44,381 nt of DNA from a virus: the IMG/VR virus record IMGVR_UViG_3300007735_000739, positions 1 through 44,381 of that record; one strand, written 5' to 3'. How positions within the stretch are numbered: the first letter of the stretch is position 1; every line of letters starts with the position of its first letter. Below, one piece after another: positions 1 through 44,381 of the stretch. Position numbers and translations under genes: made by a program. The notes beneath the pieces were generated by a model. It had not been told where the DNA came from. It saw only the letters and a list, made by a program, of their open reading frames with translations, and ran no database searches.

Positions 1-781
1 AGCAGCAACAAAGAAATATGCAAAAGCAATCTATCTTATGGACATACCTGCATATGAAGACGACGGTACAAGAATCTTTGATACTACAACAATTCCAGAC
101 GTGACAAAGACAATCCGTCAGTTTGCTGGTCGAAATATCAATAACAACTATGTCGCAACATATTTCCCAGACGTATCGATCTCTGATACAACGTCGAAGA
201 CGGTCGTTAGTAAACGCGTAAGAGTGCCATCGTCTATTATTGCACTTGGCGCACTTGCGCAAAATGATTCAAAAACATACCCGTGGTATGCACCCGCAGG
301 ATTTAATAGAACAGCACTTTCTAACGTTGTAAATCTAGCAGTTAGACTATCAAGTGCTGATCGCGATGCGCTGTATGACGCAAGAATAAATCCTATTACG
401 TCATTCCCTGGGCTTGGCTTTGTTATCTTTGGACAAAAAACATTGCAATTATCTAAGTCTTCGCTTGATCGTGTGAATGTTCGTAGGCTTATGATTGAAC
501 TAGCAAGAATTGTTTCGGCAGTCGGTCTTCAATTTGTATTCGAACCAAATACTTCGAATACAAGAACAAGATTCAAAAATGCATTAACACCGCAGCTTGC
601 AACAATTCAAGCGCAAAGCGGCATTGACAAATTCTCAATCATTGTAGATGAATCAAACAATACACAGCAAGACATAGAATCTAACAAGTTAAATGGAAAA
701 ATCGTAGTGTATCCAACGAAAGCAGTTGAATTTATTGCGTTAGATTTTATCATAACAAATTCAGGTGTCGAATTTGTCTAA
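1..781 (+). CDS. Tail sheath protein, C-terminal part (5'-truncated by window edge)
   Basis: The reading frame is open from base 2, so the ATG at 38 is an internal methionine and the gene starts before the window. The visible ~259 residues form the C-terminal sheath domain of contractile tails. They align by eye with residues ~740-988 of the next gene: YLMDI, NNNYVATYFPDV, PWYAPAG, YDARINPI, FGQKTL, SLDRVNVRRL, LFEPNT-type and KAVEFI..DF blocks recur in the same order. In T4-like sheaths (gp18) this region packs around the tail tube and links neighbouring subunits. The next gene begins 22 bases downstream, so the two are probably co-transcribed paralogues. Family assignment is firm; the total length is unknown. 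Confidence 0.9.
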   Translation, partial: AATKKYAKAIYLMDIPAYEDDGTRIFDTTTIPDVTKTIRQFAGRNINNNYVATYFPDVSISDTTSKTVVSKRVRVPSSIIALGALAQNDSKTYPWYAPAGFNRTALSNVVNLAVRLSSADRDALYDARINPITSFPGLGFVIFGQKTLQLSKSSLDRVNVRRLMIELARIVSAVGLQFVFEPNTSNTRTRFKNALTPQLATIQAQSGIDKFSIIVDESNNTQQDIESNKLNGKIVVYPTKAVEFIALDFIITNSGVEFV

Positions 782-803
782 TACTTACTATAAAGGTTAA
801 AAG

Positions 804-3816: not shown

Positions 3817-4305
3817 ATGGCAGAAACACTATCAGTAACAGATATGCTTCCTAACAAATTTGAATCTAAGCGTAAACATCGCTGGATTCTAGCAATTGAA
3901 GGTATCGATGCCTTTTTAATCAAGAAGGCAGCCCGACCTGGTTTCACAATGGGAAGCAAAGAAATTCCATGGATTAACACACAAAGATACATCTCTGGAA
4001 AGCTGAAATTTGATACAATGTCAGTAGAACTTCACGATCCTATTGCACCTGCTGGTTCACAACAGGTTATGGAATGGATTCGTACTCATCACGAATCAGT
4101 TTCTGGTAGAAGCGGTTATGCTGATTTTTACAAGCGCGATATACAATTGAAAATGCTTGATCCGATTGGAACAGTTGTCGAGTTATGGGATGTGAAAGGT
4201 GCATTAATTGAATCAGCAAAATTTGGTGATGTAGATTACGGATCAGACGATGTTTCAACAATCTCACTAACGATAAGGTTTGATAACGCAGTACTACAGT
4301 GGTGA
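3817..4305 (+). CDS. Tail tube protein (gp19-like)
   Basis: Major tail tube subunit, 162 aa, almost exactly the length of T4 gp19 (163 aa). Supporting features are the position directly after the sheath gene, the N-terminal stretch FESKRKHRWILAIEGIDAFL, the central SVELHDPIAP, and the C-terminal beta hairpin (VDYGSDDVSTISLTIRFDNA) typical of Hcp-like tube proteins. It would assemble as stacked hexamers inside the sheath. The Shine-Dalgarno AAAGGA lies about 7 bases before the ATG. A homing endonuclease gene begins 9 bases after the stop, separating the tube gene from the downstream chaperone/tape-measure block. Confidence 0.9.
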   Translation: MAETLSVTDMLPNKFESKRKHRWILAIEGIDAFLIKKAARPGFTMGSKEIPWINTQRYISGKLKFDTMSVELHDPIAPAGSQQVMEWIRTHHESVSGRSGYADFYKRDIQLKMLDPIGTVVELWDVKGALIESAKFGDVDYGSDDVSTISLTIRFDNAVLQW

Positions 4306-4314
4306 TATTGTCAA

Positions 4315-5127
4315 ATGTCAGCGCATTTTGAATGTTTATTATGCAAGAAATTTTTTGATTATGAGAGTAGAGATTTGTTTAAAAAACATTTAAACAAAGA
4401 ACACAATACTAATTTAAAACAGCTAAAAGAATATGCAAGACAAAATTTACCAGAACAATTTTGTCTTTGCGGATGCGGTGGTGTAACAAGCATACAGAAT
4501 TTTTGTGATAAAAGAAATAAATTTTTACATGGGCATTCTTCAAGAGTCACTAATAATTGGGGTCATAATGAAAATGCCCAAATTAAAAGCAAAAAGTCAA
4601 GAAAAGATATGAATCATTCTTGGCCTTCTACACCATGGAACAAAGGAAAATCTATTAAGACAGACGAAAAGTTTGCTGCGATGTGCAAAAATGTTTTTCA
4701 TACAGATGCTTATCGGCAAAAATGTTCAAAAAATATGAAATTTAGTTGGGCATCTGGAAAAATCAAGCCGTTGTCGGGCAACAATCATCCAGCGTGGAAG
4801 GGTGGAACATCTTCTATCGGGTCATTATGCAATGCAAATGTTAGATTGTATCGCGAATGGAAATTCGTAGCATTAAAAAAATCAAATTTTTCATGTGAAC
4901 GATGTGGTCAAAGAAAAATGTTGCATGTTCATCATTCAGAAATAAAAATGTCTACTATCATAAGAAAATGTGCGCCAGAAGATGCTGACATTCGAACTAT
5001 TGCTTTTAATGAAAAAATCAAATGGGTAAATGATGTAATTAATTGGCATGTAGAAAATATGCCACCTGCTATCGTTTTATGTAAAAAATGTCATAATGAT
5101 GAACATCCATCACTTAACTTTAAATAG
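4315..5127 (+). CDS. Free-standing HNH homing endonuclease with NUMOD-type repeats
   Basis: Predicted site-specific DNA endonuclease of 270 aa. The N-terminus has a C2H2-like finger (CLLCKKFFDY...H...H) and a CLCGCG knuckle. The middle has basic DNA-binding repeats of the NUMOD3 style (STPWNKGKSIKTDEKF; NNHPAWKGGTSSIGS). The C-terminal nuclease has paired zinc cysteines CERCGQRKMLHVHHSEI and LCKKCHNDEH, the HNH pattern with catalytic HH. It sits in a 55-base-to-55-base gap between two tail genes with no obvious intron or intein boundary, so it looks like an intergenic invader as in T4 (seg/mob genes). No good Shine-Dalgarno precedes the ATG; translation may be coupled to the tube gene stop 9 bases upstream. 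Target site unknown. Confidence 0.85.
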   Translation: MSAHFECLLCKKFFDYESRDLFKKHLNKEHNTNLKQLKEYARQNLPEQFCLCGCGGVTSIQNFCDKRNKFLHGHSSRVTNNWGHNENAQIKSKKSRKDMNHSWPSTPWNKGKSIKTDEKFAAMCKNVFHTDAYRQKCSKNMKFSWASGKIKPLSGNNHPAWKGGTSSIGSLCNANVRLYREWKFVALKKSNFSCERCGQRKMLHVHHSEIKMSTIIRKCAPEDADIRTIAFNEKIKWVNDVINWHVENMPPAIVLCKKCHNDEHPSLNFK

Positions 5128-5136
5128 GATTTAAAA

Positions 5137-5298
5137 ATGAATAAAAATATTGTTGCAACACTTCCTTTCGCTAAAATTGCTAAGCTTGTAATCGATCTTA
5201 TTACATTTGCCAAGGACGGCTACTCTAAAGAAGAAGGAAAAATTTTGTTAAATGACTTAGAAGATATTGCTAGTCATATTTCAAAATCATTGCTCTAA
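5137..5298 (+). CDS. Small hypothetical protein, 53 aa
   Basis: Short ORF starting MNKNIVATLPFAKI and ending IASHISKSLL. AGGAT lies about 8 bases before the ATG and it begins 9 bases after the homing endonuclease stop. The sequence is amphipathic and helical in appearance (FAKIAKLVIDLITFAKDGYSKEEGKILLNDLEDI), with no cysteines or motif I recognise. It could be a cargo gene that travels with the upstream endonuclease or an ordinary small phage gene. Function unknown. Confidence 0.6.
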   Translation: MNKNIVATLPFAKIAKLVIDLITFAKDGYSKEEGKILLNDLEDIASHISKSLL

Positions 5299-5312
5299 TC
5301 GACGTTGATTAC

Positions 5313-5341
5313 TTTACATCTTTGCTTGATTGATATATAAT
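5313..5341 (+). promoter_or_regulatory. Sigma70-type promoter upstream of the gp26-like gene
   Basis: TTTACA (5313-5318), a 17-base spacer and a perfect TATAAT (5336-5341). The expected start is near 5348, giving a leader of about 13 bases that contains only the AGGAAA ribosome site before the ATG at 5361. This would restart transcription after the inserted endonuclease and small ORF. Confidence 0.65.
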
Positions 5342-5360
5342 ATTTTAGGAAACTATAAAT

Positions 5361-6191
5361 ATGCCAAGCAAGTCAGATTTAGCAAATGATGCGTTAACAC
5401 AAATTCCTCGTTCAAATCCAGTTCAAGATGATTTCAACTGGACGGTTCCAGTTGAAAGCATTCCATTACCGTCACAAGGCAAAATTTATTCTAAAAGTTC
5501 TCCTCTTTTTGGAAAGCAATTAGTTCAGATAAAGTCTATGACTGCGTTAGAAGAAGACATTCTTTTAAGCAAAGCATTGATTCGCGAAGGTACAGTTCTA
5601 ACTCACCTTATGAATTCATGTATGATTGACAAGACAATCAGCACAAAAGAAATGCTAAATGGTGATAGAATGGCAATTCTTGTAGCTATTAGAATCACTG
5701 GGTATGGTCCACAATACAAAGCAGAAGTTACATGTCCGGCGTGCAGTACAACACAAAAAGCAGAATTTGATCTTTCAAGTTTGCCAATTAAAAATCTTGA
5801 CATCAATCCAATCGCTGTTGGTGTTAATGAATTTGAATATCTTCTGCCTGTGTCGAAAAAGAGGGTAACGTTTAAATTTCAAACAGGTAAAGATGAAGAA
5901 GAGCAAGCACAAATTCTTGCTTATAGAAAAAAAGCAATGCCTGATATTCTCGTTGAAAACATTGTAACATCAAAACTTGAATTTTCAATTTTATCAATCG
6001 ATGGAATTACTGACCGCAATAAAATAAATCAGTTTATTAAATCAATGCCGGCGCATGATTCACGAATGATTAGAAAATATATTGCAGATAATGAGCCCGG
6101 CATTGATTTAGAAGAAGAGTTTAAATGTTCGAAGTGCGGGAAAGAATCACGGGTGTCTCTTCCCCTCGGGATCACATTTTTTTGGCCTTAA
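5361..6191 (+). CDS. T4 gp26-like baseplate/tail-assembly protein (zinc-binding)
   Basis: A 276-aa protein resembling the T4 base-plate protein family (gp26-like). The N-terminus carries WTVPVESIPLPSQGKIY, a segment common in that family (LPS.G..Y), and MTALEEDILLSKALIREG. Two Cys pairs are present, CPACST near residue 125 and CSKCGK near residue 257, suggesting a split zinc ribbon. In T4 this family takes part in baseplate hub assembly. Its place between the tail tube and the tape-measure candidate is also where many phages encode tail-assembly chaperones. It ends ...LPLGITFFWP at TAA 6189-6191, immediately after a run of seven T that could allow slippage into the downstream frame (see the 6177 entry). 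The start ATG has AGGAAA 6 bases upstream. Confidence 0.8.
   Translation: MPSKSDLANDALTQIPRSNPVQDDFNWTVPVESIPLPSQGKIYSKSSPLFGKQLVQIKSMTALEEDILLSKALIREGTVLTHLMNSCMIDKTISTKEMLNGDRMAILVAIRITGYGPQYKAEVTCPACSTTQKAEFDLSSLPIKNLDINPIAVGVNEFEYLLPVSKKRVTFKFQTGKDEEEQAQILAYRKKAMPDILVENIVTSKLEFSILSIDGITDRNKINQFIKSMPAHDSRMIRKYIADNEPGIDLEEEFKCSKCGKESRVSLPLGITFFWP
6177..6183 (+). other. Possible +1 programmed frameshift site (T7 run)
   Basis: The last codons of the gp26-like gene read ACA TTT TTT TGG CCT TAA. Phe-tRNA on TTT (6180-6182) could re-pair one base downstream on TTT (6181-6183), after which translation would continue GGC CTT AAT... for 71 more residues to TAG 6397-6399, giving a ~345-aa product. 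The downstream frame is open across the whole junction and reads a protein-like sequence. A -1 shift would not reach this frame. Confidence 0.4.
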
Positions 6192-6234
6192 TCAAGACTA
6201 TAGAATCAAAATATTAGAAGATTTTCGCTTTTTG

Positions 6235-6399
6235 ATGAAAAATTTATCAATGCAGTATTCAGAAATCTACAAGCTGCCCGTAAGATTTCGAAAGTATTTT
6301 ATTGATTCAACGATTAATGATTCAACAAATACAAAGTCTAAAGTCGGTACATTAGAAATCGATGATGATACGCCAATCTCGCAGATATTTAATAGATAG
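6235..6399 (+). CDS. Small ORF or frameshift extension of the gp26-like protein
   Basis: From the ATG at 6235 this frame encodes 54 aa beginning MKNLSMQYSEIYKLPVRFRK. The same frame is open further upstream and reads GLNQDYRIKILEDFRFL before the methionine, with no good start codon or Shine-Dalgarno near 6184-6235. The SEIYKLPVRFRKYFID pattern resembles the short helical C-terminal parts of phage tail-assembly chaperones (my recollection of the pattern, not a search). Either it is an independent small gene with a weak start, or it is the second half of a frameshifted chaperone ending just before the tape-measure gene at 6426. Confidence 0.5.
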   Translation: MKNLSMQYSEIYKLPVRFRKYFIDSTINDSTNTKSKVGTLEIDDDTPISQIFNR

Positions 6400-6425
6400 A
6401 ACGTCAGTAAATTCACGAGAGCATT

Positions 6426-8498
6426 ATGGCAGATCCTGTTGACACGTCAGAACAAACAAAAGCTGCCGTAGAAAGACTTGCAGCAGCATATCAAAATGGC
6501 ACCACGCCTGTTGAAAAATTTTCAAGTGTCATTGATGAATTAACGACAATTTTACAACAGCACGAGGGTGTTGTATTAGAAGTTGCAAAAGCACAGTCCG
6601 CTTTAACTGCAGTCAATCTTATTTTTGATTCAAAACCATATGAATTACTTTTTGAAGGAATGGAAAAAGCTGCAAGAGTTCCAAAAATCTTAGCATCTGA
6701 GCTTGCTGGTGGCAATGTTTTTTTAACAGAACAAACAAATAAGCAAGCAAGAATTATTCAAGATGATGCATATAAAACACAACAAGAATTGATTGAAAAA
6801 ACAATATCATTAGGCGTTGTTAACGGCAAAGAAATAATCAGACCGCTAACAGTCTTTTATAAAGATGCAGAAGAAATGGGCAGATCATTTTATGAAACTG
6901 TTCTTGCAGATTCTCGTTTGTACAATGCAGGCGTAATGTCTCTAAATTCTGATAATGCATTTCAAATAAAGGAATTGACAGATCTTACGATGAAGGGTTT
7001 GCAAGTACGAGCAGAAACTTTGCGTGCGATTTACCAGGAAGAATTTTCAAAGACAGGTGAAATAACTGGCGAGTTCATTGAGAAATTTTCTTCCACAGTC
7101 TTAGCAGCAGAAAAAATCACTGGTTTGAGTAACAGAGCGCTTAGTGAAGATTTACAACGCATGATAACAGACGTAACAATGTTTGGAAATCAATCGTATG
7201 CACAATTGGCGTCGTTATCTTCGACTATACACCAGCTTGGGCTAGATATTGACGATGTAGCACACGTCTCAACAAAATTTATGTCATTTGAAGATGCATC
7301 AACTTCAATAGCAAATATAGCTGCTGTTACGGGCGGCACTTTAGACACATTAAAGTTGTTTTATCTTGCAAATGAAGACAAAGAAGGATTCTTTAGAGAA
7401 CTTAGAAGCGAACTTTTAGATACGGGCGTATCTTACGAACAACTTTCACATCAAGAACAAGTTTATCTTACAAAGCAGCTTGGTCTTACAAGCCCACGAC
7501 AATTGCAATCGCTACTTGAAGCAAAAATAGATGCGTCAACTAACATAACAGACTTAATAGAAAAAGCAGCAAAATCAGACGAATTTCAAGGCGAAGCACT
7601 TATAGATAAAATTGCAAAAACTGGCGGAATGGCGCAGCAAGCGCTTGAATCAATTCAGCCTGACAAGTTACAAGCTGCTTTGTCAGCAATAAAAGACTTA
7701 GCGGGAGGAACTGCAGCATTTAGTGATTCACTTGTTGCATTCTCTAATGATCTTGAATCTGCTGCAAATGATACAATGCCAAAAATGGCTGCAGCAGGAA
7801 AAGAAGCAGGAAGTGCATTTGGTATTGCACTCAAATATTCATCAACAGCATTGTCAGAATTTGATGGAGCAATTGACACATTCATTAAGGGCGGAGGAAT
7901 TGAAAAACTAGTAGCATCGCTAAAATCATCAGCGCTTTATCCAAGGTCATTACCGCCAGTATGGAAAGATATAATTAGTGGCGTTGATTTATTCGCAGAA
8001 TCATGGTCATCTTCATTGACTTCATTAAATGATGAGACTGTCACAAAAATATCACAAATAACAAAAACAACACAAAGCTTAGAAAGCTCATTGCTCAAAT
8101 CAACAGAGACAATAGAAAAATTGAAAATAAAAGGTACAATTGATCAATCATCTATTGAGTTACCTACACAAATTTCAAATATTGAAAATGTAAAAGACAC
8201 AACGCAATTAGTAAGTAATGTGTCAGGTATTGTTCGAGCAACGCTTGATGAAAATTCAAATGAATCAGAAAAAGTAAGTGACAAATCAATTACGCAAGAA
8301 GAAAACAAAAAAGAAAAGCAACAAGAACTCACAACAAGCGATATGAAAGTCAATATTAAATTGAATATTGACACAGAAGAGTTACACAAACTTATTACAG
8401 CATCTGTGACTGAGGTTATTAAGGGCACTATTTTGATTAATACACCTACAGGAAAGAATCCTCCCGGATTTTACAAGATTGCACTGGAACAAGCATAA
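6426..8498 (+). CDS. Probable tape-measure protein
   Basis: A 690-aa largely helical, Ala/Glu/Lys/Ser-rich protein with no cysteine in the parts read. The position fits a tape measure: after tube and gp26-like genes, before hub genes. T4 gp29, the tape measure that sets tail length, is 590 aa. Long heptad-like stretches (LVAFSNDLESAANDTMP, ITKTTQSLESSLLKSTE) and a Lys/Glu-rich low-complexity zone near residues 615-640 (NESEKVSDKS...ENKKEKQQE) precede a compact C-terminal segment that ends NPPGFYKIALEQA. CGAGAG lies about 5 bases before the ATG. The stop overlaps the next start (TAATG at 8496-8500), so the two are translationally coupled. The identification rests on position and composition, not on a catalytic motif. 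Confidence 0.6.
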   Translation: MADPVDTSEQTKAAVERLAAAYQNGTTPVEKFSSVIDELTTILQQHEGVVLEVAKAQSALTAVNLIFDSKPYELLFEGMEKAARVPKILASELAGGNVFLTEQTNKQARIIQDDAYKTQQELIEKTISLGVVNGKEIIRPLTVFYKDAEEMGRSFYETVLADSRLYNAGVMSLNSDNAFQIKELTDLTMKGLQVRAETLRAIYQEEFSKTGEITGEFIEKFSSTVLAAEKITGLSNRALSEDLQRMITDVTMFGNQSYAQLASLSSTIHQLGLDIDDVAHVSTKFMSFEDASTSIANIAAVTGGTLDTLKLFYLANEDKEGFFRELRSELLDTGVSYEQLSHQEQVYLTKQLGLTSPRQLQSLLEAKIDASTNITDLIEKAAKSDEFQGEALIDKIAKTGGMAQQALESIQPDKLQAALSAIKDLAGGTAAFSDSLVAFSNDLESAANDTMPKMAAAGKEAGSAFGIALKYSSTALSEFDGAIDTFIKGGGIEKLVASLKSSALYPRSLPPVWKDIISGVDLFAESWSSSLTSLNDETVTKISQITKTTQSLESSLLKSTETIEKLKIKGTIDQSSIELPTQISNIENVKDTTQLVSNVSGIVRATLDENSNESEKVSDKSITQEENKKEKQQELTTSDMKVNIKLNIDTEELHKLITASVTEVIKGTILINTPTGKNPPGFYKIALEQA

Positions 8499-23726: not shown

Positions 23727-26700
23727 ATGTCGTCATTGTCTGTCAAAGAAATTGCCCTTCATGAATCTACTGAATATTTTGGTGGTGATGATTTAGCTGC
23801 AGACGTATTTATGAAATACGCCCTGCGTGATCAAAATGATAATTTATTAGAATCAACACCTGATGATATGCATCTTAGATTAGCAGAAGAATTTGCTAGA
23901 ATAGAACAAAAATATGTCAACCCAATGAGTAAAAATGAAATTTATTCATTGCTCAAAGGATTCAAAGATATTATCCCGCAAGGATCACCAATGTCAGGAG
24001 TTGGTAACGAATATCAACTACAATCATTATCGAATTGCTTCGTCATTGATTCACCTCATGATTCATATGGTGGAATTCTTTTTACAGATCAAGAACAAGT
24101 TCAAATTATGAAGCGCCGAGGCGGCGTTGGCTTTGATATTTCTACAATTCGTCCAAAAGGACAGCCAACAACAAATGCTGCTAAAACAACTGATGGAATA
24201 GGCATCTTTATGGATCGTTTTAGCAATTCAACAAGAGAAGTAGCACAAGGCGGCCGACGGGGCGCATTGCTCTTATCGATTGATTGTAAACATCCAGAAA
24301 TTGAAACGTTTATTGATATTAAAAGAAACTTAAAGAAAGTGACTGGCGCAAATATCTCAATAAAATGGTCTGATGAGTTTATGAACGCAGTTAAAAATGA
24401 TGAAGAGTTCACTCTTTGTTGGCCTGTAACATGCACTCCTACAACTGCTGAAATAACAAAAGTTGTTAGAGCTAAAGAAATTTGGTTAAAATACGTAGAT
24501 GCTGCATGGTCGTCTGCAGAGCCTGGCGCATTCTTCTGGGACAGAGTAAAGCAAAATACACCCGCAGATTTATACGCATCGTTTGGTTATGAATCAATTT
24601 CTTCCAATCCCTGCCTTGCAGGTGAGACAGAAGTTATGGTCGCAGATGGAAGAGGTTTTGTCAAAATAGAGGAGTTGGCAAATTCCGGCGCAGATGTTCC
24701 AGTGTATGCATATGATAATGAAACTGGTAAATTAGTCATTAGAAAAATGAGAAATCCACGAAAAACAGGCAATAACGTTCCTGTATACAAAGTTACAATT
24801 GAAAATGGGCATTCGTTTAAAGCAACAGGAAATCATACAATGATTTTACGAGATGATTCTCGAAAACAAGTAAAAGATTTATGCGCTGGAGATTCATTGT
24901 GGATAGCAAGCGCAGTTAATGCTCAATTCAACGAAGTGTTGCCTAATGTAAGAAATACAAAATCGCAAGATTATCGATGGATTAAGGATTGTAATTCAAA
25001 ATCATGGAAAGCTGACCATCGAATGATTTGGGAGCACCAAAACAATAAAAATCTTAACAAGAATGAAGTAATTCATCATGCAGATTTTGATGGTCTAAAT
25101 AATAACATTGACAACTTAGTATGTATGACTGCAGAGGAGCATAACAAATATCACGCAGCATTGATGAGAGGAAAAAACAATCCAATTTATAAAATTAAGT
25201 CGAATGCAAAAAGATTTGAAGAATATAGCAATGCAATGTCAAATGCAACATCTGGACTTTCAAATCCCTGTGCGTTTGACGTTGCAAATGATGTAATTCA
25301 TACGCATTTTAAAGAACTAACAAAACAAAAGAACAGAAGAATAAATCACAATGATTGGCAAGCATATGTCAAAGCTAATGAACTAGATTTCCCGTTGATG
25401 TTGAATAAATTTAGAACTTGTGGAAAAGAATTCCTGCAGTTCGCAATTGACATTGCAAACGAATTAAACATACGACACGACCTTGTTGATGTAGATTTAA
25501 GAACAGCAAAGCGTGCTATAGAAGCAGAATCTACGGGTTACAATTGGAGACTTGTAGATAAAAAGCTTTATATTGAGCGTACTTGCGAATGGTGTAACAA
25601 TACATTTGAATCTGCATATAACAAGCGAGAAATTGCATTTTGTTGTCTTAGTCACTCATTGCTCTATGCAAACAGAAAAGAAAACAAAAATCTTGCAAGA
25701 AAAATGACAATTTCAAAGATTCATAGTGACAAGGGAGAAAAAACAAGACACGAGCAAGTATCAGCGTTTACACATTTACGTTCATTGTTGATGAGGAATC
25801 CAACGAGAAAAGAATGGTCTGATTATTGCAAGAATGCAGGCATAAATGTGCGCATGTCTGGAACAAAGTACGGATTTAAATCATGGAATGACATAGCAGA
25901 AGCCGCATTGTATTATAATCACCGTGTTGTATCTGTTGAATTGATTGGAAATGAAGACGTGTATAATGGCACAGTCGATAATGACCACACATTCTGTTTT
26001 AGAGTTGGCACTGAAAAGCATGAAAAATTCAAAAATGATGTATCAATTATTCTTGCAAACGAACAATGCGGCGAGCTAGTTCTTTGCAGCTATGATTCTT
26101 GCAGACTAATGGTTGTGAACTTATTGTCATTCGTTAATAACGAATTCACATCGAATGCATCATTTGATATTTCTCGTTTTAATTCAGTTGTTATGAAAGC
26201 GCAGCGTCTTATGGATGATCTCGTTGACCTTGAAATTGAAGTTGTTGATAAAATCATACAAAAAGTAGAAAATGATCCAGAACCTGCACACGTCAAACAG
26301 ATTGAGCTAGATCTATGGAAAAAGATAAAAAATAAATGTGTGAACGGACGCCGAACAGGGCTTGGCATCACTGGTCTTGGCGATGCAATTGCTGCTCTTG
26401 GATTTAGATACGGCGATGACAATTCAATTGAGTTTACAAAAATAGCATATAAAGCACTTGCTGTTGCTGCGCATAGATCATCAATGATTTTAGCAGAAGA
26501 ACGTGGCGCATTTCCAATTTTTGATTATAATCTTGAAAGAGAACATGTGTATATGAATAAAATCATCTCAGCTTGTGATGAAAATTCTAGTGAAAGAAGC
26601 TTCGCGAGAATGTGGAAAGTTACGGGTCGAAGAAATATTGCATTAACAACAACAGCACCAGTGGGAAGTGTCAGTATTATGACACAAACAACGTCTGGTA

Positions 26701-27704
26701 TTGAACCTGCATTTTTGCTTTCATATAAACGTAGAAGAAAAATTGTTCATAATGACACTTCATCAAGAGTTGATTTTGTTGATGCGCTGGGCGATAAATG
26801 GCAAGAGTATATTGTCTATCATCAAGGATTCAAAAAATGGATGGATGTAACAGGAAAGACAGACGTCAAAGAATCACCTTACTTTGGCGGAACTGCAAAT
26901 GATATCGATTGGGTGAAAGCTGTCGATATTCAAGCAGCAGCGCAAGCATGGATTGATCACTCAATTAGCAAAACGATAAATCTTCCCAATACTGTCACAA
27001 AAGAAATTGTTAATGACGTTTATATGAGAGCGTGGGAAAGCGGTTGCAAAGGTGCGACAGTTTACAGAGACGGTTCTCGCGATGGCGTTCTTGTTTCAAC
27101 TGAAGAAAAGAAAGAAGTAAAGTTGCAAGATCAAAGTAGGATTGCTCAATCAAGACCGAAACAATTGCCTTGTGAATTGCATAGAGCAAATATTAGAAGC
27201 ACATCACCAGATGGTTCCATTATGACTGAGTCGTGGCTTGTTCTTGTCGGGTTGTTAAATGGAAAACCATATGAAGTATTTTGTGGGATGCCAGAAATGA
27301 TTGAAATTCCTAAAAAATACAAATCAGGTGTTTTAATTAAAAATGGCAAAAAAGACGGTGTGACGACATACAATTTGGAAGTTCCAGTCGGTGATGATGA
27401 AAGTCTGATATTTAAGGACGTTGTAACGCTCTTTAACAATAAAACGCAAGGATCGTTTACGAGAACAATCTCACTGGCACTCAGACATGAAGTTCCACTT
27501 CATTATATTGTTGAACAGTTGCAGAAAGATAAAAATGGAGACATGTTTTCATTTGGCAAAGTTATTGCAAGAGTGTTAAAATCTTACATTAAAGATGGAA
27601 CAAAGACATCATCTGTTAAGTGTATGCAATGTGGCAATACAGAGCTTGTTTATCAAGAGGGGTGCCTTTCTTGCAAAAATTGTGGTTGGGGTCGCTGCGG
27701 GTAG
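23727..27704 (+). CDS. nrdJ: Class II (B12-dependent) ribonucleotide reductase with an internal intein
   Basis: Reduces ribonucleotides to deoxyribonucleotides using adenosylcobalamin. After removal of a 485-aa intein the extein is 840 aa. Family signatures: NCFVIDSPHDSYGGI, RRGGVGFDISTIRPKG, NP/CGELVLCSYDSCRL around the finger-loop catalytic cysteine, TTTAPVGSVSIMTQTTSGIE, and a C-terminal cysteine cluster (CMQCGN...CLSCKNCGWGRCG) for thioredoxin-type re-reduction. The intein interrupts directly before the catalytic Cys of NPCGE, so splicing is needed for activity. AAAGGAG precedes the ATG. It starts the nucleotide-metabolism block. Confidence 0.92.
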   Translation: MSSLSVKEIALHESTEYFGGDDLAADVFMKYALRDQNDNLLESTPDDMHLRLAEEFARIEQKYVNPMSKNEIYSLLKGFKDIIPQGSPMSGVGNEYQLQSLSNCFVIDSPHDSYGGILFTDQEQVQIMKRRGGVGFDISTIRPKGQPTTNAAKTTDGIGIFMDRFSNSTREVAQGGRRGALLLSIDCKHPEIETFIDIKRNLKKVTGANISIKWSDEFMNAVKNDEEFTLCWPVTCTPTTAEITKVVRAKEIWLKYVDAAWSSAEPGAFFWDRVKQNTPADLYASFGYESISSNPCLAGETEVMVADGRGFVKIEELANSGADVPVYAYDNETGKLVIRKMRNPRKTGNNVPVYKVTIENGHSFKATGNHTMILRDDSRKQVKDLCAGDSLWIASAVNAQFNEVLPNVRNTKSQDYRWIKDCNSKSWKADHRMIWEHQNNKNLNKNEVIHHADFDGLNNNIDNLVCMTAEEHNKYHAALMRGKNNPIYKIKSNAKRFEEYSNAMSNATSGLSNPCAFDVANDVIHTHFKELTKQKNRRINHNDWQAYVKANELDFPLMLNKFRTCGKEFLQFAIDIANELNIRHDLVDVDLRTAKRAIEAESTGYNWRLVDKKLYIERTCEWCNNTFESAYNKREIAFCCLSHSLLYANRKENKNLARKMTISKIHSDKGEKTRHEQVSAFTHLRSLLMRNPTRKEWSDYCKNAGINVRMSGTKYGFKSWNDIAEAALYYNHRVVSVELIGNEDVYNGTVDNDHTFCFRVGTEKHEKFKNDVSIILANEQCGELVLCSYDSCRLMVVNLLSFVNNEFTSNASFDISRFNSVVMKAQRLMDDLVDLEIEVVDKIIQKVENDPEPAHVKQIELDLWKKIKNKCVNGRRTGLGITGLGDAIAALGFRYGDDNSIEFTKIAYKALAVAAHRSSMILAEERGAFPIFDYNLEREHVYMNKIISACDENSSERSFARMWKVTGRRNIALTTTAPVGSVSIMTQTTSGIEPAFLLSYKRRRKIVHNDTSSRVDFVDALGDKWQEYIVYHQGFKKWMDVTGKTDVKESPYFGGTANDIDWVKAVDIQAAAQAWIDHSISKTINLPNTVTKEIVNDVYMRAWESGCKGATVYRDGSRDGVLVSTEEKKEVKLQDQSRIAQSRPKQLPCELHRANIRSTSPDGSIMTESWLVLVGLLNGKPYEVFCGMPEMIEIPKKYKSGVLIKNGKKDGVTTYNLEVPVGDDESLIFKDVVTLFNNKTQGSFTRTISLALRHEVPLHYIVEQLQKDKNGDMFSFGKVIARVLKSYIKDGTKTSSVKCMQCGNTELVYQEGCLSCKNCGWGRCG
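24612..26066 (+). other. NrdJ intein with HNH endonuclease, 485 aa, C-terminal Gln
   Basis: N-terminal splicing block CLAGETEVMVADGRGFVKIEEL, block B NGHSFKATGNHTMIL. An HNH domain follows (VIHHADFDGLNNNIDNLVCM, then TAEEHNKYH), and a later CEWCNNTFE...CCLSH finger. C-terminal blocks are VELIGNEDVYNGTVDNDHTF and VSIILANEQ. The last two residues are Glu-Gln rather than His-Asn, followed by Cys+1 of the extein. Terminal Gln is a known minority variant among inteins. This is the only intein in the window retained in cis with its nuclease inside. Confidence 0.88.
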
Positions 27705-37964: not shown

Positions 37965-38192
37965 ATGCTAAAAGACGGAACACTTGTTATTGTAAGAGAA
38001 AATAATGAAACATATGAAGATTATTCACGTCGAGTCGGAATAGTCATAAGCATGACTGATATGTCAGATTTTGGAATAGCAATGTCTGAACATCCAATAT
38101 ATGACGTCTTTATTGATAATCGAATAGTCTTGCTTTTTGAAGAAGAAGTAGTATCTATTTCTGGCACGAGCACGAAAATTATAAAACATTAA
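37965..38192 (+). CDS. Hypothetical protein, 75 aa
   Basis: Begins 1 base after the SDR stop. Opens MLKDGTLVIVRENNETYEDY and contains VGIVISMTDMSDFGIAMSEH and PIYDVFIDNRIVLLFEEEVV, beta-strand rich and reminiscent of small SH3-like proteins of large phages. No enzymatic motif. Spacing supports co-transcription. Confidence 0.6.
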   Translation: MLKDGTLVIVRENNETYEDYSRRVGIVISMTDMSDFGIAMSEHPIYDVFIDNRIVLLFEEEVVSISGTSTKIIKH

Positions 38193-38208
38193 TATGGAAG
38201 TATAACTA

Positions 38209-38406
38209 ATGAATACAATTCAAATCATTGTTGATAATGAAGAAGGAATTGATATTGGCGCGATCTTAGAAGTTCAATCATACAACAACTATGACAATTC
38301 ATATGCGTCAAAAGATGAATTTGATTATATGCTGTGTAAAGAAAAGACTACAAACAAGACGTGGCATATCGCATCAGATTGCTTTGAATACCTTGACAAT
38401 GAATAA
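38209..38406 (+). CDS. Hypothetical protein, 65 aa
   Basis: Opens MNTIQIIVDNEEGIDIGAIL and continues DEFDYMLCKEKTTNKTWHIA, with the ending SDCFEYLDNE. Layout is like the preceding 75-aa protein (small beta barrel with an acidic end). GGAAG lies about 12 bases before the ATG. No function can be assigned. Confidence 0.6.
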   Translation: MNTIQIIVDNEEGIDIGAILEVQSYNNYDNSYASKDEFDYMLCKEKTTNKTWHIASDCFEYLDNE

Positions 38407-38411
38407 TCAAA

Positions 38412-38831
38412 ATGAGATTCTTAATTATTGATGACAGTCCTGGTCGGTATGATACATTTACAAGAATGCTTGATAGAGAAAAGATCAAGTGGGTAATGTC
38501 ATGCGATCCTCAAATTGTTGACATACTATTTGAATATGCTGGCACTGATGGACAAATTGATGGCATTTTGCTTGATCATGATATGCCGTATAAAGACGGC
38601 AGAGAATGGGCAAAATGGATTGAAGCTAATATTGTAGATGTTCCTGTCGTCGTTACTTCAACGACAGGACTGCCGAATGTTCGTGAAGAAATGATTAAAA
38701 CATTAAAAGAAGCAAAAATTCCCGCATATCTTTGTCCAGCCGACCATATCAATTGTGAAATTGAGTGGCTTGCATGGTTGAAAGGCGCAATCGAAACACT
38801 TAACAAGGATTCTATCGATACAAATGAGTAA
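38412..38831 (+). CDS. Receiver-like (CheY-fold) protein, 139 aa
   Basis: N-terminus MRFLIIDDSPGRYDTF provides the DD acidic pair, GILLDHDMPYKDG the phosphoacceptor-type Asp (LLDHDMP), and VVVTSTTGLPNVREEM the Thr/Ser of the receiver switch. The Lys of the classical receiver is not certain. Stand-alone phage receiver-like proteins are thought to belong to a cyclic-phosphate or signalling branch of the receiver family. It overlaps the dnaE N-fragment start by 8 bases, implying coupled expression with the polymerase. Confidence 0.7.
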   Translation: MRFLIIDDSPGRYDTFTRMLDREKIKWVMSCDPQIVDILFEYAGTDGQIDGILLDHDMPYKDGREWAKWIEANIVDVPVVVTSTTGLPNVREEMIKTLKEAKIPAYLCPADHINCEIEWLAWLKGAIETLNKDSIDTNE

Positions 38832-39738
38832 TATTATTCGTCCTCCAAAGAAATTCGTCGGCCTTCACGCGCACTCAGGATTCTCAAACTCAGATGGCTT
38901 GGGATATCCTGCACAACATATTGATTTTGTTATAAAAAATGGAATGGATGCATGGACATTGACAGATCATGGCAACGGATCTGGCCTTGCACATGCACAT
39001 TCTGCTGCAAAAAAGATGCAGAAACAGGGTATTAATTATCGACAACTTAACGGAGTTGAATTTTATTTTGTTCCTTCGCTTAAAGAATGGCGTGTGCAAT
39101 ACGAGCAACATAGAGAAGAAGTTGCGATAGCAAAATCAGAAAAGAAAGCAAAAGAAGCAACAGACATTGATGCAGATACAGATGCAGAATCTGCAGGTCA
39201 TGTTGTTGAGAATGAAGAAGAAACAAAATCGATGAGTCCAATTTCCATCAATGATGAATGGAAACGAAGGTATCATCTTGTTGTAATTGCAAAAAATGCA
39301 GTGGGCCTTGCAAATTTGTTTACGCTTGTTAAACGCTCATTTACAGACGGTTATTACAAATTCCCAAGAATTGATTTTGACTTACTTAAAGAATACGGTG
39401 AGGGTCTCATTGTAAGTTCTGCGTGTTTGTCTGGCGATTCAATGTTAATTACAGATGTTGGTAACGAATCATTGAGAAACCTTGTTGAGAGATATAAAAA
39501 TGGTGAAAGAACACAAGTGCTTTCATTCAATGAAAATACAAAAGCAAAAGAAATGAAAAATGTAATGTGGGGTGATGTTACAAGAAAAAATGCGAAATTA
39601 ATGAAAATTACGACATCTGATAATCGTGTTTTAAAACTAACACATGACCACAAAGTGCTGACTGACAAGGGGTGGCTTCGAGCAGATGAATTAAGTAAAA
39701 ATATGCCACTTAAAATAATGTCGCTATTAGAGAAGTGA
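38824..39738 (+). CDS. dnaE: DNA polymerase III alpha, N-terminal fragment with N-intein 1
   Basis: Residues 1-200 are the PHP domain of a family C polymerase: VGLHAHSGFSNSDG metal-binding His, WTLTDHGNGSGLAHAHSAAK, and LIVSSA preceding the conserved Cys. At residue 201 the intein begins (CLSGDSMLIT) and runs 104 residues to the stop. The next extein residue is Cys of CVGGIYASK in the gene at 40732. Expression overlaps the receiver gene. Replication polymerase role is inferred from homology; activity requires two trans-splicing events (see below). Confidence 0.9.
   Translation: MSNIIRPPKKFVGLHAHSGFSNSDGLGYPAQHIDFVIKNGMDAWTLTDHGNGSGLAHAHSAAKKMQKQGINYRQLNGVEFYFVPSLKEWRVQYEQHREEVAIAKSEKKAKEATDIDADTDAESAGHVVENEEETKSMSPISINDEWKRRYHLVVIAKNAVGLANLFTLVKRSFTDGYYKFPRIDFDLLKEYGEGLIVSSACLSGDSMLITDVGNESLRNLVERYKNGERTQVLSFNENTKAKEMKNVMWGDVTRKNAKLMKITTSDNRVLKLTHDHKVLTDKGWLRADELSKNMPLKIMSLLEK
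39424..39735 (+). other. N-half of split intein 1 in DnaE, 104 aa
   Basis: Block A CLSGDSMLITDVGNESLRNL with nucleophile Cys, block B DNRVLKLTHDHKVLTDKGW containing the T-H-D-H pattern, then ELSKNMPLKIMSLLEK at the stop. Size and break point match conventionally split inteins (N ~100 aa, C ~40 aa). Partner half at 40732-40854. Confidence 0.9.
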
Positions 39739-39743
39739 GTTTT

Positions 39744-40730
39744 ATGATGAAACAGCTAAGTAGAAATAAGAAAATAGAAGATATATTTATTCAAAATTTG
39801 AATGCATGGAAAACAAATAGCGAAATTGTTTCGATGTATAACGCGGGAATTTCACCACTACAAGTAATTCAATTGTGGCTGTTTGAAACTAAAAACAATA
39901 TTCGATATGCGGTTATTGAACACAATAGTGAGAAAATACTTCCATTCAAGTTAATGAAAATTTCTGTGTTTGCGACTAGACTAAAAAAGTACATACAATA
40001 CACAAACGAGCAACGTAAAAAATTCCTTAGTCAATGTCAAGAAATGAAAATAAAATACAAGCATCTTGATAAGTCAGATGAAGAAATAACACAGCTAGTA
40101 AAAAAACAACTAGGCGTGTGGGCAAATAATGCGCATAATAAACGCAAAGAAAAACAATTTTACAGTTACGACAATAAGCCAGAGTACTGGATGACAAAGC
40201 TAAATATTTCTTACGATGATGCGCTTGCAAAAGTTACATTGCATAAAAAAGAAAAATCACCATTTGCTGTCGAACACTGGATTAAGAAAGGTTATAAACT
40301 TGAAGATGCTGTTGAAATCATAAGAAAAAACGCAGCAAAGGGCGGAATTAATGCAACAAAAAAATGTGAATCGATATGCACATCATCACTCGAAAGAGAC
40401 ATTTACAATGAAATAATAAAAATATACCCTGACGCTATTTTGCAATTTTCTATTAATGATGTTTATGTTTATGACATTTGCGTTGTACAAACTAAAAAAA
40501 TAATAGAAATAAATGGAACATATTGGCATGCAGATAAAAGAGTCTATGACGACAATGCTACTGTATATGGCAAAAACGTAGCACAAATTCATGCAGCAGA
40601 CGAAAAGAAGCGAGGTTATGCAATAAAAAATGGATATGAAGTCTTAACAATTTGGGAACTTGATATTAGAAACGAAAGACAAAAAACACTAAGCAAATCA
40701 ATAGAATTTCTTTCAAACGGGCAAAAATAA
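39744..40730 (+). CDS. EDxHD (Vsr-like) homing endonuclease in dnaE break 1
   Basis: About 328 aa. Starts available are GTG 39735 and ATG 39744/39747; AGAAG at 39731-39735 best fits 39744. The N-terminal ~200 residues are basic and repetitive, probably DNA-binding. The C-terminal ~110 residues carry the EDxHD nuclease: Glu in LERDIYNEIIKIY, Asp in VYVYDICVV, IIEINGTYWHAD with His, Asp in HAADEKKRGYA, and KNGYEVLTIWELD. The same family sits in the uvsX break, and the two share the GYEVLTIWE-type end, but their N-terminal domains differ. Probable role: homing into uninterrupted dnaE. It sits between the N-half and C-half of a split intein. Confidence 0.85.
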   Translation: MMKQLSRNKKIEDIFIQNLNAWKTNSEIVSMYNAGISPLQVIQLWLFETKNNIRYAVIEHNSEKILPFKLMKISVFATRLKKYIQYTNEQRKKFLSQCQEMKIKYKHLDKSDEEITQLVKKQLGVWANNAHNKRKEKQFYSYDNKPEYWMTKLNISYDDALAKVTLHKKEKSPFAVEHWIKKGYKLEDAVEIIRKNAAKGGINATKKCESICTSSLERDIYNEIIKIYPDAILQFSINDVYVYDICVVQTKKIIEINGTYWHADKRVYDDNATVYGKNVAQIHAADEKKRGYAIKNGYEVLTIWELDIRNERQKTLSKSIEFLSNGQK

Positions 40731-40731
40731 A

Positions 40732-40854
40732 ATGAATTCATGCAATTTTGTTGATCTTCTAGCGATAGAAGAGTTAGATGAATATGAAGATGTGTTTGAT
40801 ATAACGGTCGAAGATAATCATAACTTTTTTGCAAATGAACTTGTAGTACATAAT
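40732..40854 (+). other. C-half of split intein 1 in DnaE, 41 aa
   Basis: MNSCNFVDLLAIEELDEYED then VFDITVEDNHNFFANELVVHN: block F (DVFDITVEDNHNFFAN) and block G (ELVVHN) with penultimate His and terminal Asn, followed by Cys+1 of the polymerase. Confidence 0.9.
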
Positions 40855-41988
40855 TGCGTCGGCGGAATTTATGCCTCAAAAGTAATTAGAGGAATGGCAC
40901 TAAATAAATCAGACGCTGAGATTCAATCAGAATTAAAGAATCTTACAGACAGATTTGTTGATGCAGTTGGACTTGAAAATTTTAATCTTGAATTGCAATT
41001 TAATAAATTACAAATTCAACATGACACAAATCGTCATTTGTTAATGCATGCAAAAAGTGACAACTTAAATCTTGTTGCAACATGCGATTCTCATTATCCA
41101 ACACCTGATAAGTGGCAGGCACGAGAATTGTATAAACGAATGGCATGGATGAATGATAAAACACAAGTCAAAGCATTGCCAACATTTGAAGAATTAAAAT
41201 GTGAATTGTATCCAAAAAATGCAGAGCAAATGTGGGACGAGTATCTAAAAAACAAGCCCGCAAATCCTTTTTATGAAGGAAATGATGAAATAATTCGCGA
41301 TGCAATTGAAAGAACACATGACATTGCATGGCAACAATGTGACGATGTTTGGATTGATACAAAAGCAAAACTTCCAAACTTTGACAATAGCGAAAAAAGC
41401 GGTTTCGTACAACTCGTTGACATTGTAAAAGAAAGAATGACAGCAATGGGTCTTGACCAGAAGCAAGAATACGTCGAAAGAGTTCAATATGAGCTTGCAG
41501 ATATCAAATATCTTGGGCATGCATCATACTTCTTGACAATGTACAAGATCTTTCACAAAGCATCAGAAAAAACACTCTTCGGCCCGGGTCGTGGTTCTGC
41601 ACCCGGATCACTTGTTAATTACATTCTTGGAATTACACAAATCGATCCTTTGCCATACGGATTACTTTGGAATAGATTTTTAGGTCGGCATAGATGTTTG
41701 CAAGAAGACATTTTTGTTTTGACAGCACGCGGAAGCAAACAGCTCAAAGAGATAAAAGTCAATGACAGCGTCATTTCTCCAGCAGGAGGAATTAACAAAG
41801 TAATTGACAAAGAGACAGACACTAATCACGTAATAAAAGCAACAATAAAAGTGAATAATCAAAATTTTGCATGTTCACCAAATCATAGATGGATTATCAA
41901 ACGAGACAATAAAATAATTGAAATTTTAACAACTGATATTACAAAAGGCGACAAGCTCTTACTAAAGAAGGCACACAATAATGAGTAA
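40732..41988 (+). CDS. dnaE: DNA polymerase III alpha, middle fragment flanked by two intein halves
   Basis: 418 aa in three parts. 1-41 is the C-half of intein 1 ending VVHN. 42-321 is 280 aa of polymerase starting CVGGIYASKVIRG and containing VATCDSHYPTPDKWQARELY and, before the break, FGPGRGSAPGSLVNYILGIT then LWNRFLGRHR, the palm segment just before the catalytic aspartates. 322-418 is the N-half of intein 2. Such a double-tailed fragment must splice at both ends to be incorporated. Overlaps the downstream nuclease gene by 8 bases. Confidence 0.92.
   Translation: MNSCNFVDLLAIEELDEYEDVFDITVEDNHNFFANELVVHNCVGGIYASKVIRGMALNKSDAEIQSELKNLTDRFVDAVGLENFNLELQFNKLQIQHDTNRHLLMHAKSDNLNLVATCDSHYPTPDKWQARELYKRMAWMNDKTQVKALPTFEELKCELYPKNAEQMWDEYLKNKPANPFYEGNDEIIRDAIERTHDIAWQQCDDVWIDTKAKLPNFDNSEKSGFVQLVDIVKERMTAMGLDQKQEYVERVQYELADIKYLGHASYFLTMYKIFHKASEKTLFGPGRGSAPGSLVNYILGITQIDPLPYGLLWNRFLGRHRCLQEDIFVLTARGSKQLKEIKVNDSVISPAGGINKVIDKETDTNHVIKATIKVNNQNFACSPNHRWIIKRDNKIIEILTTDITKGDKLLLKKAHNNE
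41695..41985 (+). other. N-half of split intein 2 in DnaE, 97 aa
   Basis: Block A CLQEDIFVLTARGSKQLKEI, block B KVNNQNFACSPNHRWIIKRD with the S-P-N-H pattern, and a hydrophilic end TTDITKGDKLLLKKAHNNE at the stop. It interrupts the extein after GRHR, just before TSWPDIDSD that holds the catalytic acidic residues. Its sequence is clearly different from intein 1. Confidence 0.9.
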
Positions 41989-42559
41989 CATGACGTACAA
42001 AGAAGTATATGATTTGCAGATTTCGTCATTTAAGAGTAACAAGAAATTAAGTATAAGTAATGATGAAAGATTTAATCACTTTAATGTGAAATCTGGAAAG
42101 TTTGCAGAAAATCTTGTAAAAGAAATAATAGGAGAAAATTATATTACTACTGGCATTTGTATTCAAAGAAATACAAAGGGTAACCGCGGAAAAAATTTGA
42201 AATATATGCCAGACGGTTATATTAAAGACATCGACATATACACAGAAGTCAAAAATTTGGATCTTGGTAACGGTTCAGGAACTGCAATTGAAAAACTGTT
42301 ATATATGTTCAGAAAAATAGAAGAATACGACAAACCTGTATTAATCATTTTTTGCGGAAAACATGAATTGTTAATTGATGAAGTCTCGCATGAGATATAC
42401 AGTGCATATCATTTTAATGCTGGATCAAAAATTGTTAATGCTGTTATTAATGAAGTAAGAGAAAAAATTGTCGATATTGTGAAAGTTTCAGAGCTTAATA
42501 ATGAAAAACTCTTATCATACAAAGAAAAGCTTCGTGCAAGCAAATATAATTTAACATGA
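41981..42559 (+). CDS. Predicted PD-(D/E)XK nuclease in dnaE break 2 (restriction-enzyme-like)
   Basis: 192 aa. The pattern fits a type II restriction-endonuclease core: helix GKFAENLVKEII with an acidic residue, KYMPDGYIKDIDIYTEVKN giving PD...E-x-K, and GNGSGTAIEKLLYMFRKIEE, a 'GTA.EKL' helix seen in several restriction enzymes. A hydrophobic strand KPVLIIFCGK follows. It shows no EDxHD, HNH, LAGLIDADG or GIY-YIG motif. The gene starts inside the stop of the DnaE middle fragment and its stop overlaps the methyltransferase start by 4 bases (ATGA 42556-42559), the close coupling usual for R-M gene pairs. Alternatives: an unusual homing endonuclease. Specificity unknown. Confidence 0.65.
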   Translation: MSNMTYKEVYDLQISSFKSNKKLSISNDERFNHFNVKSGKFAENLVKEIIGENYITTGICIQRNTKGNRGKNLKYMPDGYIKDIDIYTEVKNLDLGNGSGTAIEKLLYMFRKIEEYDKPVLIIFCGKHELLIDEVSHEIYSAYHFNAGSKIVNAVINEVREKIVDIVKVSELNNEKLLSYKEKLRASKYNLT

Positions 42560-43398
42560 ATAGAACAATATTAAAGTATGCTGGCAACAAAAGCAGAGTG
42601 ATGAGTCAAATTAACAAGTTTTTTGACTGGGAGGATGTAGGCACATACATAGAGCCATTTTGTGGTGCAATGGGAAGTGTAATTAACGCAAACATACCTG
42701 AAAATGTAGACATAATACTTGCAGATGCAAATGTTGAAATAATTGATTTTTATAAAACAATAAAAGACTACGCATATGAAGTCGAGCAGCTAGCAAATAG
42801 CTGGTCATCAGATGAAAAAACATATTTAGAAATAAGATCTTGGGATAGAGCGCTGAATTGGAGAAAAAGCAAGTCTCAAATTGAGATAGCAGCAAGAACG
42901 ATCTATCTGAATCAGCGTTGTTTCAACGGGCTTTTTAGAATAAATAAATATGGATTTTTCACAACACCGTGGAATCATAGAGAAAATGCACCAAAAATAG
43001 AAATAACAAAAAAAACATACCAAATTGACATTATAAAACGATGTAATATGAAAGCATGCGACTGGCGAGAATTATTGTCTCATGATAAAAAAAATGCATT
43101 AATATATGCAGATCCGCCATACATTGACATCAAATCGCCAGAATCTAATTTCGGTGGTTATATAGGAAACTTTAGTCTGACAGATCAGACTAATTTAGCT
43201 GAACAGCTGCTTCTCAAATCAAAAAATGGTTCAAAAGTTATTGTTTCAAATTCTTGGTGCAATGAATCAATTGATATTTACAAGAATTTTGGATTTAATA
43301 TTCATCAAGTATTTGCAAATAGAATGTTAAGTGCAGATAACAAATCTCGTGGTAAAACAACTGAATTATTAGCTACATTAAACTGTAGATGTGAGTAA
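42556..43398 (+). CDS. Dam-type (D12) N6-adenine DNA methyltransferase
   Basis: 280 aa with the alpha-group amino-methyltransferase motifs: KYAGNKSR near the N-terminus (FxGxK-type SAM contact), TYIEPFCGAMGSV (motif I, EPFxGxGS), YLNQRCFNGLFRINKYGFFT (Y.N..CFNGL.R.N..G.FN) and YADPPYID (motif IV, DPPY). The family includes Dam, DpnM and EcoRV methylases, so GATC or a related sequence is likely but not shown. It ends 1 base before the ATG of the third DnaE fragment. In this position it would protect phage DNA from the neighbouring nuclease. Confidence 0.88.
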   Translation: MNRTILKYAGNKSRVMSQINKFFDWEDVGTYIEPFCGAMGSVINANIPENVDIILADANVEIIDFYKTIKDYAYEVEQLANSWSSDEKTYLEIRSWDRALNWRKSKSQIEIAARTIYLNQRCFNGLFRINKYGFFTTPWNHRENAPKIEITKKTYQIDIIKRCNMKACDWRELLSHDKKNALIYADPPYIDIKSPESNFGGYIGNFSLTDQTNLAEQLLLKSKNGSKVIVSNSWCNESIDIYKNFGFNIHQVFANRMLSADNKSRGKTTELLATLNCRCE

Positions 43399-43399
43399 A

Positions 43400-43567
43400 A
43401 TGAAATCACTAAACGAACATGACATTAATGTTTCTGATTATGATGAAATTGAAATCGAATCAATTGAGTATAGCTTTTGTGATCAAAAACTTGTTGATAT
43501 AGAAGTTGAAAACGACCACTTATATCATGTATCGCAAGATAATAGTCAATTTGTAATTACACATAAC
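43400..43567 (+). other. C-half of split intein 2 in DnaE, 56 aa
   Basis: MKSLNEHDINVSDYDEIEIE and CDQKLVDIEVENDHLYHVSQ then DNSQFVITHN; block F DIEVENDHLYHV, block G ITHN with canonical His-Asn, followed by Thr+1. The Thr rather than Cys +1 distinguishes this intein from intein 1. Confidence 0.9.
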
Positions 43568-44381
43568 ACAAGTTGGCCGGACATTGACAGCGATGCTGGT
43601 GATCGTGATGAACTGATTCGTGCAGCACAAGAATTATTTGGCAATGATGCCGTTATTCCTGTTTCTAACTTTAATACTTTGAAATTAAAGTCGCTTGTTA
43701 AAGATGCATCAAAGTTTTTTGATGTTCCATTTGAAGAAGTTAATGCAATTACTAATACGCTTCAAGAAGAAGTAATGCCCTTAGCAAGAGATGAAGATCA
43801 AGAAAAATCTGTATTCGTTTTGAAACACGATGATTGCATGAAATATTCACCGGGATATCGTGCGTTTATGGAAAAATATCCCGATGTTGAAAGAAACATT
43901 AACGCACTTTTTATGGAAAATCGTTCAATAGGAAGACACGCAGGTGGTGTCTTAGTTGCAGATCCTGTTACGTTAGAAAAGACAATGCCTATTATTGCAG
44001 CACGCGGCGAAATTCAGACGCCGTGGACAGAGGGCATGAACTTTAGAAACTTGGAAGATAATGGATTTTTGAAGTTTGACTTCTTGGGCTTGACATTGTT
44101 AAAAGACGTAGAGAATTGTATTAGAAGAATTCTAATTACACAAGGAACGAAGCAACCAAAATTCGCAGATATCAAAGAATTTTTTGATAAAAATCTTAAT
44201 TGCAGATTTGTTAAGCAAGATGACCAAAAAGTTTGGAAACATGTTTATCATGAAGGCAGATTCACATCAGTTTTCCAGTTCACTGCAGATGGTGCACGTA
44301 AATTCTGTCTTGAAGCGAAACCTGACTCAATTGATGAGCTTGCAGCATTAACTGCAATTTATCGTCCCGGGCCGCTTAAAG
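43400..44381 (+). CDS. dnaE: DNA polymerase III alpha, C-terminal fragment with C-intein 2 (runs off window)
   Basis: Open from ATG 43400 to the window end. Residues 1-56 are the C-half of intein 2 ending ITHN; then polymerase resumes TSWPDIDSDAGDRDELIRAA, with the PD.D.D catalytic motif, RSIGRHAGGVLVADPVTLEK, LKFDFLGLTLLKDV and the start of a further region ending AALTAIYRPGPLK. Residues after 57 match DnaE palm/fingers. GAGTAAA lies just before the ATG but no strong Shine-Dalgarno is seen; it may be coupled to the methyltransferase stop. The C-terminus lies beyond the window. Confidence 0.9.
   Translation, partial: MKSLNEHDINVSDYDEIEIESIEYSFCDQKLVDIEVENDHLYHVSQDNSQFVITHNTSWPDIDSDAGDRDELIRAAQELFGNDAVIPVSNFNTLKLKSLVKDASKFFDVPFEEVNAITNTLQEEVMPLARDEDQEKSVFVLKHDDCMKYSPGYRAFMEKYPDVERNINALFMENRSIGRHAGGVLVADPVTLEKTMPIIAARGEIQTPWTEGMNFRNLEDNGFLKFDFLGLTLLKDVENCIRRILITQGTKQPKFADIKEFFDKNLNCRFVKQDDQKVWKHVYHEGRFTSVFQFTADGARKFCLEAKPDSIDELAALTAIYRPGPLK

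Follow-up and report, generated by a model that had tools for sequence, protein, structure and literature searches.

A probable restriction-modification gene pair between the halves of a split intein in a phage dnaE gene

Inteins and fractured genes are usually explained by homing endonucleases. Dassa et al. 2009 reportedly described fractured genes in which split inteins are accompanied by a free-standing Vsr-like homing endonuclease. Restriction-modification (R-M) genes are known from viruses in another setting: chloroviruses carry adjacent R-M genes such as CviAII, and early degradation of host DNA is credited to the restriction enzymes (PMC7019647). Here we analyze the 44,381 bases of IMG/VR virus record IMGVR_UViG_3300007735_000739, a single metagenomic contig (the window) whose tail-sheath genes mark it as a tailed phage. 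Its dnaE gene, which encodes the replicative polymerase, is broken by two split inteins, and between the halves of the second lie genes for a 192-amino-acid (aa) nuclease and a 280-aa DNA methyltransferase. Judged from sequence, the two probably form a Type II-like R-M module, pairing a PD-(D/E)XK nuclease with a Dam-type methyltransferase whose presumed target is GATC, which would put a self-protecting restriction system in the slot of a homing endonuclease.

Both halves of split intein 2 have splice residues, and its insertion site is empty in relatives. The N half begins with Cys and carries SPNHRW, the C half ends HN↓T (the arrow marks the insertion site or splice junction), and the two are predicted to splice in trans. 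Scanning with the dnaE piece that encodes the C-terminal part retrieved 80 related loci for comparison. In 70 of the 80 the exteins are contiguous and the site is empty, reading LGRHR↓(T/V)S-PDID or near it; in 68 of these LGRHR precedes the site and T or V follows it. The other 10 loci have an intein at the site or, in one case (L017), a few residues further on, and every intein at the site terminates HN↓T. One (L002) is a contiguous cis intein. Another (L013, 5712-6141) is split with no gene between its halves, the frames overlapping so that the N-half stop falls just past the C-half ATG at 5998; this is the empty-cassette state. Six (L003, L004, L009, L010, L024 and L079) are split inteins flanking a ~310-aa zinc-ribbon PD-(D/E)XK nuclease. 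In L018 (2356-6087) the halves are 3.4 kb apart and enclose several small open reading frames (ORFs) and, encoded on the other strand, a 528-aa nuclease; the cargo of this slot is thus of more than one kind. Separately, L013 has a second insert, with a 347-aa nuclease, that breaks the extein upstream (4273-5595), and the intein of L017 (2541-3125) is a different one, inside the polymerase PDID motif and followed by a Vsr-like nuclease.

The first-pass annotation had proposed that a gap of this kind normally holds a homing endonuclease, and 7 relatives do have a homing-type nuclease there, which makes the gap an established cargo slot. The R-M pair occupies this intein site in the window and in none of the 80 related loci. 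A methylase alone, had it been widespread at the site, would have counted against the R-M reading; among the same 80 loci there is no match to the window methyltransferase at the intein site.

The two ORFs of the pair are intact and have 4 bases (ATGA) in common. Upstream, the first 8 bases of the nuclease gene also belong to the intein-N gene, and the downstream intein-C gene starts either at GTG 43391, overlapping the methyltransferase gene by 8 bases, or at ATG 43400, leaving a 1-base gap. An ORF check found the coordinates, the 4-base and 8-base overlaps and the 1-base gap given by the first-pass annotation to be exact. A chimeric assembly, in which an R-M fragment was fused to dnaE, might be suspected of a pair seen in an intein on one metagenomic contig and nowhere else. 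Such a fusion is very improbable given that the intein halves are complete and complementary, that the frames are intact over every junction, that the genes overlap by 8, 4 and 8 bases (or end in the 1-base gap), and that all genes of the region are low in G+C (28-39%). No Rfam element was found in 38000-44381, and the frequency of promoter-like sites in that region is not above chance.

The methyltransferase is a clear member of the D12/Dam-type N6-adenine family, and its activity is predicted accordingly from sequence. It matches PF02086 and, over its cut-off, the Dam model TIGR00571 (Table 1); its closest solved relatives are DpnM (2dpm) and then E. coli Dam, and the motifs KYAGNK, EPFCG and DPPY (D186-P-P-Y189) are intact. 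The original D12/Dam-type call is thereby confirmed.

The nuclease gave no family match above the curated cut-off in the family libraries, and single-sequence searches of viral contigs, bacterial genomes, phages and plasmids returned no relative. A DNA pattern search for GTAxEKxxY yielded chance matches only. Weak matches to Tox-REase-7 (E 0.06-0.11) and to phrog_15137, an 'endonuclease' (0.004), both fall at the catalytic hairpin. Relatives were reached via the methyltransferase: an alignment of the window enzyme with that of phage L103 (41% identical), used to scan viral contigs, led to L106, where a nuclease relative lies ahead of the methyltransferase (phmmer 8.5e-32), and the two-sequence nuclease alignment then retrieved L187 and L188. 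Two more scans of viral contigs found no further member, and a scan of ~85,000 prokaryote species genomes, resting on two short motifs, found none. The family thus has four members, all viral and from IMG/VR (the window, L106/L186, L187 and L188); absent from the family libraries searched, it appears to be new. D78, E89 and K91 (D78...E89-x-K91) are invariant in all four divergent members, in which KSGKFAE and GTAxEKL are also conserved.

AlphaFold modeled the nuclease from the four-member alignment with a predicted local distance difference test (pLDDT) of 80 and a predicted template modeling score (pTM) of 0.79, as against 43 and 0.38 from the single sequence. The model has a helix at 38-50 (with E43), strands at 54-56, 79-81 and 86-92, a helix at 102-113 and a strand at 120-125, an order of helices and strands equal to that of the PD-(D/E)XK core. 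D78 adjoins strand 79-81, and E89 and K91 lie on strand 86-92. The PDB list produced by VIA-align is dominated by PD-(D/E)XK nucleases with middling Z scores of up to 7.6 (BstEII, 7.5; Bax1, 7.0; N.BspD6I, 6.5; MunI, 6.0; EcoT38I, 6.0), and Can2/Card1 and XisH are also among the top matches of this fold. Motif conservation and modeled topology, with the VIA-align list behind them, support the identification of the 192-aa protein as a PD-(D/E)XK nuclease. The first-pass annotation had proposed it as a candidate of this kind and had staked the proposal on structure prediction returning the fold; the topology was obtained, with the invariant residues placed on it.

Directly behind the nuclease gene, all four contigs have a gene for an adenine methyltransferase, with a 3-base gap in L106 and 8-base overlaps in L187 and L188. 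The methyltransferases of L106 and L187 are D12 homologues of the window's (48% and 40% identity), and the order of identity agrees for nuclease and methyltransferase, L106 being nearer to the window than L187. That of L188 belongs to the unrelated Dam family PF05869 (E 1.1e-29). A methyltransferase kept behind the nuclease even when its family is exchanged would most simply be explained by a shared substrate sequence. The L106 pair adjoins a DNA ligase gene and a TnpB-like ORF (373-1665, minus strand), and the 5′ end of the latter overlaps the nuclease gene. The L187 pair (5887-7264) is immediately upstream of an intein-free dnaE, so that, with the window, two of the four known pairs are inside or adjoining dnaE. 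The L188 pair is at the start of its contig, beside unrelated genes. None of these three pairs was seen in an intein, which argues that the pair is portable and represents cargo lodged in a split intein rather than part of the intein design. Homing endonuclease families are tied to a cognate intron or intein site, and this family is not; its endonuclease and methyltransferase genes are adjacent and inherited together, as in Type II R-M systems. The constant pairing, across two unrelated methyltransferase families, supports the R-M assignment first made from the window alone.

The 192-aa protein could alternatively be a long-target homing endonuclease that spreads the intein, with the methyltransferase as a passenger. 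It occupies the exact position of the homing endonucleases of relatives, and its catalytic stretch, KYMPDGYIKDIDIYTEVK, aligns with RYTPDFYLEKEDLYVELK of the homing nucleases resident at the site. We consider this unlikely, since none of the three other members was seen in an intein, each has an adenine methyltransferase right behind it, and the protein lacks the zinc-ribbon region of the ~310-aa nucleases at the site. The methyltransferase would also be needless for a homing enzyme, because the insertion itself destroys the target.

Our guess is that the pair recognizes GATC. This target is favored because the D12 and PF05869 methyltransferase classes both include GATC enzymes. K7, L126, R128 and P138 of the window methyltransferase are presumably the GATC-recognition positions known from the EcoDam and T4Dam structures. 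GATC occurs 126 times in the window against 186 expected (0.68 of the Markov expectation), and CATG is equally depleted (0.71). Across the related loci pooled, GATC is at its expected level, and it is normal in most related phages.

Several observations weigh against an R-M module. With CATG as low as GATC, the depletion is no pointer to GATC as the target. A Foldseek search with the nuclease model gave no match at E <= 0.001 in the PDB or among viral models, and Z scores below 8 are by themselves no proof of kinship to solved nucleases. The pair within an intein is a single case from one metagenomic contig. Dam-type methyltransferases of phages, moreover, are often orphan, as in L103, L107 and cyanophage neighborhoods (orphan viral methyltransferases are treated in PMC7019647), and the window enzyme could therefore serve other ends; in the annotated records checked, no nuclease of this family lies near the methyltransferases of cyanophages and other phages. 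Such enzymes are also widespread in phages (617 records), and the methyltransferase might be the selected part of the insert, giving protection from host GATC restriction or tuning expression beside a decaying or unrelated nuclease. We judge this quite improbable: the ORF of the nuclease is undamaged, the four members, divergent as they are, all keep its catalytic residues, and in the 4 contigs the nuclease was never seen without an adenine methyltransferase, even where that enzyme comes from another family.

An R-M module at this position would work as follows. The polymerase would be made as three polypeptides and joined by the two trans-splicing inteins, so insertion of the pair should cost the phage little; between the intein halves it would sit at a silent position within a gene essential for replication. 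The R-M genes may be read together with the polymerase genes, with the methyltransferase marking phage DNA during its replication and the nuclease cutting unmarked DNA, which could be that of the host chromosome, of a phage infecting the same cell or of a relative that lacks the intein. A frequent cutter with the short site of an R-M nuclease would destroy a rival genome, not home precisely. More tentatively, the pair may have replaced homing as the means of persistence: in mixed infections the nuclease would kill unmethylated intein-free relatives, rescued DNA would recombine with the carrier, and loss of the cassette would be penalized. We regard this extension as possible but doubtful. If it is true, and if the enzymes work as proposed, the intein would become an addiction and exclusion element. 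More broadly, a split intein could offer competitive cargo a neutral place to land inside an essential phage gene, and a small family of putative phage R-M nucleases, paired with two unrelated methyltransferase types, comes to light. The compact two-gene unit makes it possible to test whether R-M genes can drive selfish elements.

The dnaE region reads, on the + strand, as piece 1 with the N half of intein 1 (IntN1), a Vsr-like nuclease, piece 2 with the C half of intein 1 and the N half of intein 2 (IntC1 and IntN2), the nuclease and methyltransferase of the pair, and piece 3 with the C half of intein 2 (IntC2; Table 1). Splice sites of piece 2 were placed by comparison with the empty-site relatives, and the C-extein of piece 3 continues past the contig end. 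The TIGR00632 and DUF559 matches of the Vsr-like nuclease are both under the curated cut-offs; its product fits an ordinary fractured-gene homing endonuclease of intein 1. Elsewhere in the window, a ribonucleotide reductase large subunit of 1325 aa (23727-27704) matches HNH endonucleases at residues 424-640, probably an intein, and two consecutive ORFs at 2-3770 each match the phage tail-sheath family phrog_23.

Table 1. Genes and intein parts of the fractured dnaE region (window coordinates).
Feature	Position	Strand	Evidence
dnaE piece 1: PHP-domain N-extein and intein-1 N half (about 39424-39735)	38824..39738	+	PF02811 1.3e-25; PF14890 3.8e-6
Vsr-like nuclease within the intein 1 gap	39735..40730	+	Vsr TIGR00632 9e-4; DUF559 1.3e-3; phrog_13076 'endonuclease' 8e-6; motif IIEINGTYWHADKRVY
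dnaE piece 2: intein-1 C half 40732-40854, middle extein 40855-41694, intein-2 N half 41695-41985	40732..41988	+	PF14890 2.3e-10; PF07733 6e-24
Predicted PD-(D/E)XK nuclease, apparently new viral family, 192 aa	41981..42559	+	Three relatives; AlphaFold model; VIA-align list
D12/Dam-type N6-adenine DNA methyltransferase (predicted activity), 280 aa	42556..43398	+	PF02086 1.3e-33; TIGR00571 5.9e-48; 2dpm 9e-28
dnaE piece 3: intein-2 C half 43391-43567 (ends HN↓T), C-extein from 43568	43391..44380	+	PF07733 3.5e-21; PF17657 6e-12; junction versus empty alleles

Split inteins that hold nucleases, R-M systems of viruses and Dam methyltransferases are all known individually, and their combination appears to be new. 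The first-pass annotation had called an R-M cassette in a split-intein gap undescribed; our literature search, whose coverage lay outside the full text of Dassa et al. 2009, found no paper on a methyltransferase or an R-M pair in an intein gap. Among R-M systems, the window methyltransferase is of the DpnM/Dam class, like the D12 enzymes (e.g. DpnM) of the GATC-specific DpnII/MboI type, for which a PD-(D/E)XK partner is expected; unlike in those systems, the window nuclease has no match among the restriction-enzyme families of Pfam or NCBIfam. As with CviAII of the chloroviruses, neighboring restriction and methyltransferase genes are encoded by a virus, the window pair being known from its sequence. 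The chlorovirus genes differ in belonging to a eukaryotic virus and, as far as PMC7019647 says, in lying outside any intein or replication gene. In the fractured genes reported by Dassa et al. 2009, as here, a split intein interrupts an essential phage gene, and its halves enclose a complete free-standing nuclease gene. Intein 1 of the window fits that kind, whereas the insert of intein 2 departs from the single homing endonuclease in being a nuclease paired with a DNA methyltransferase.
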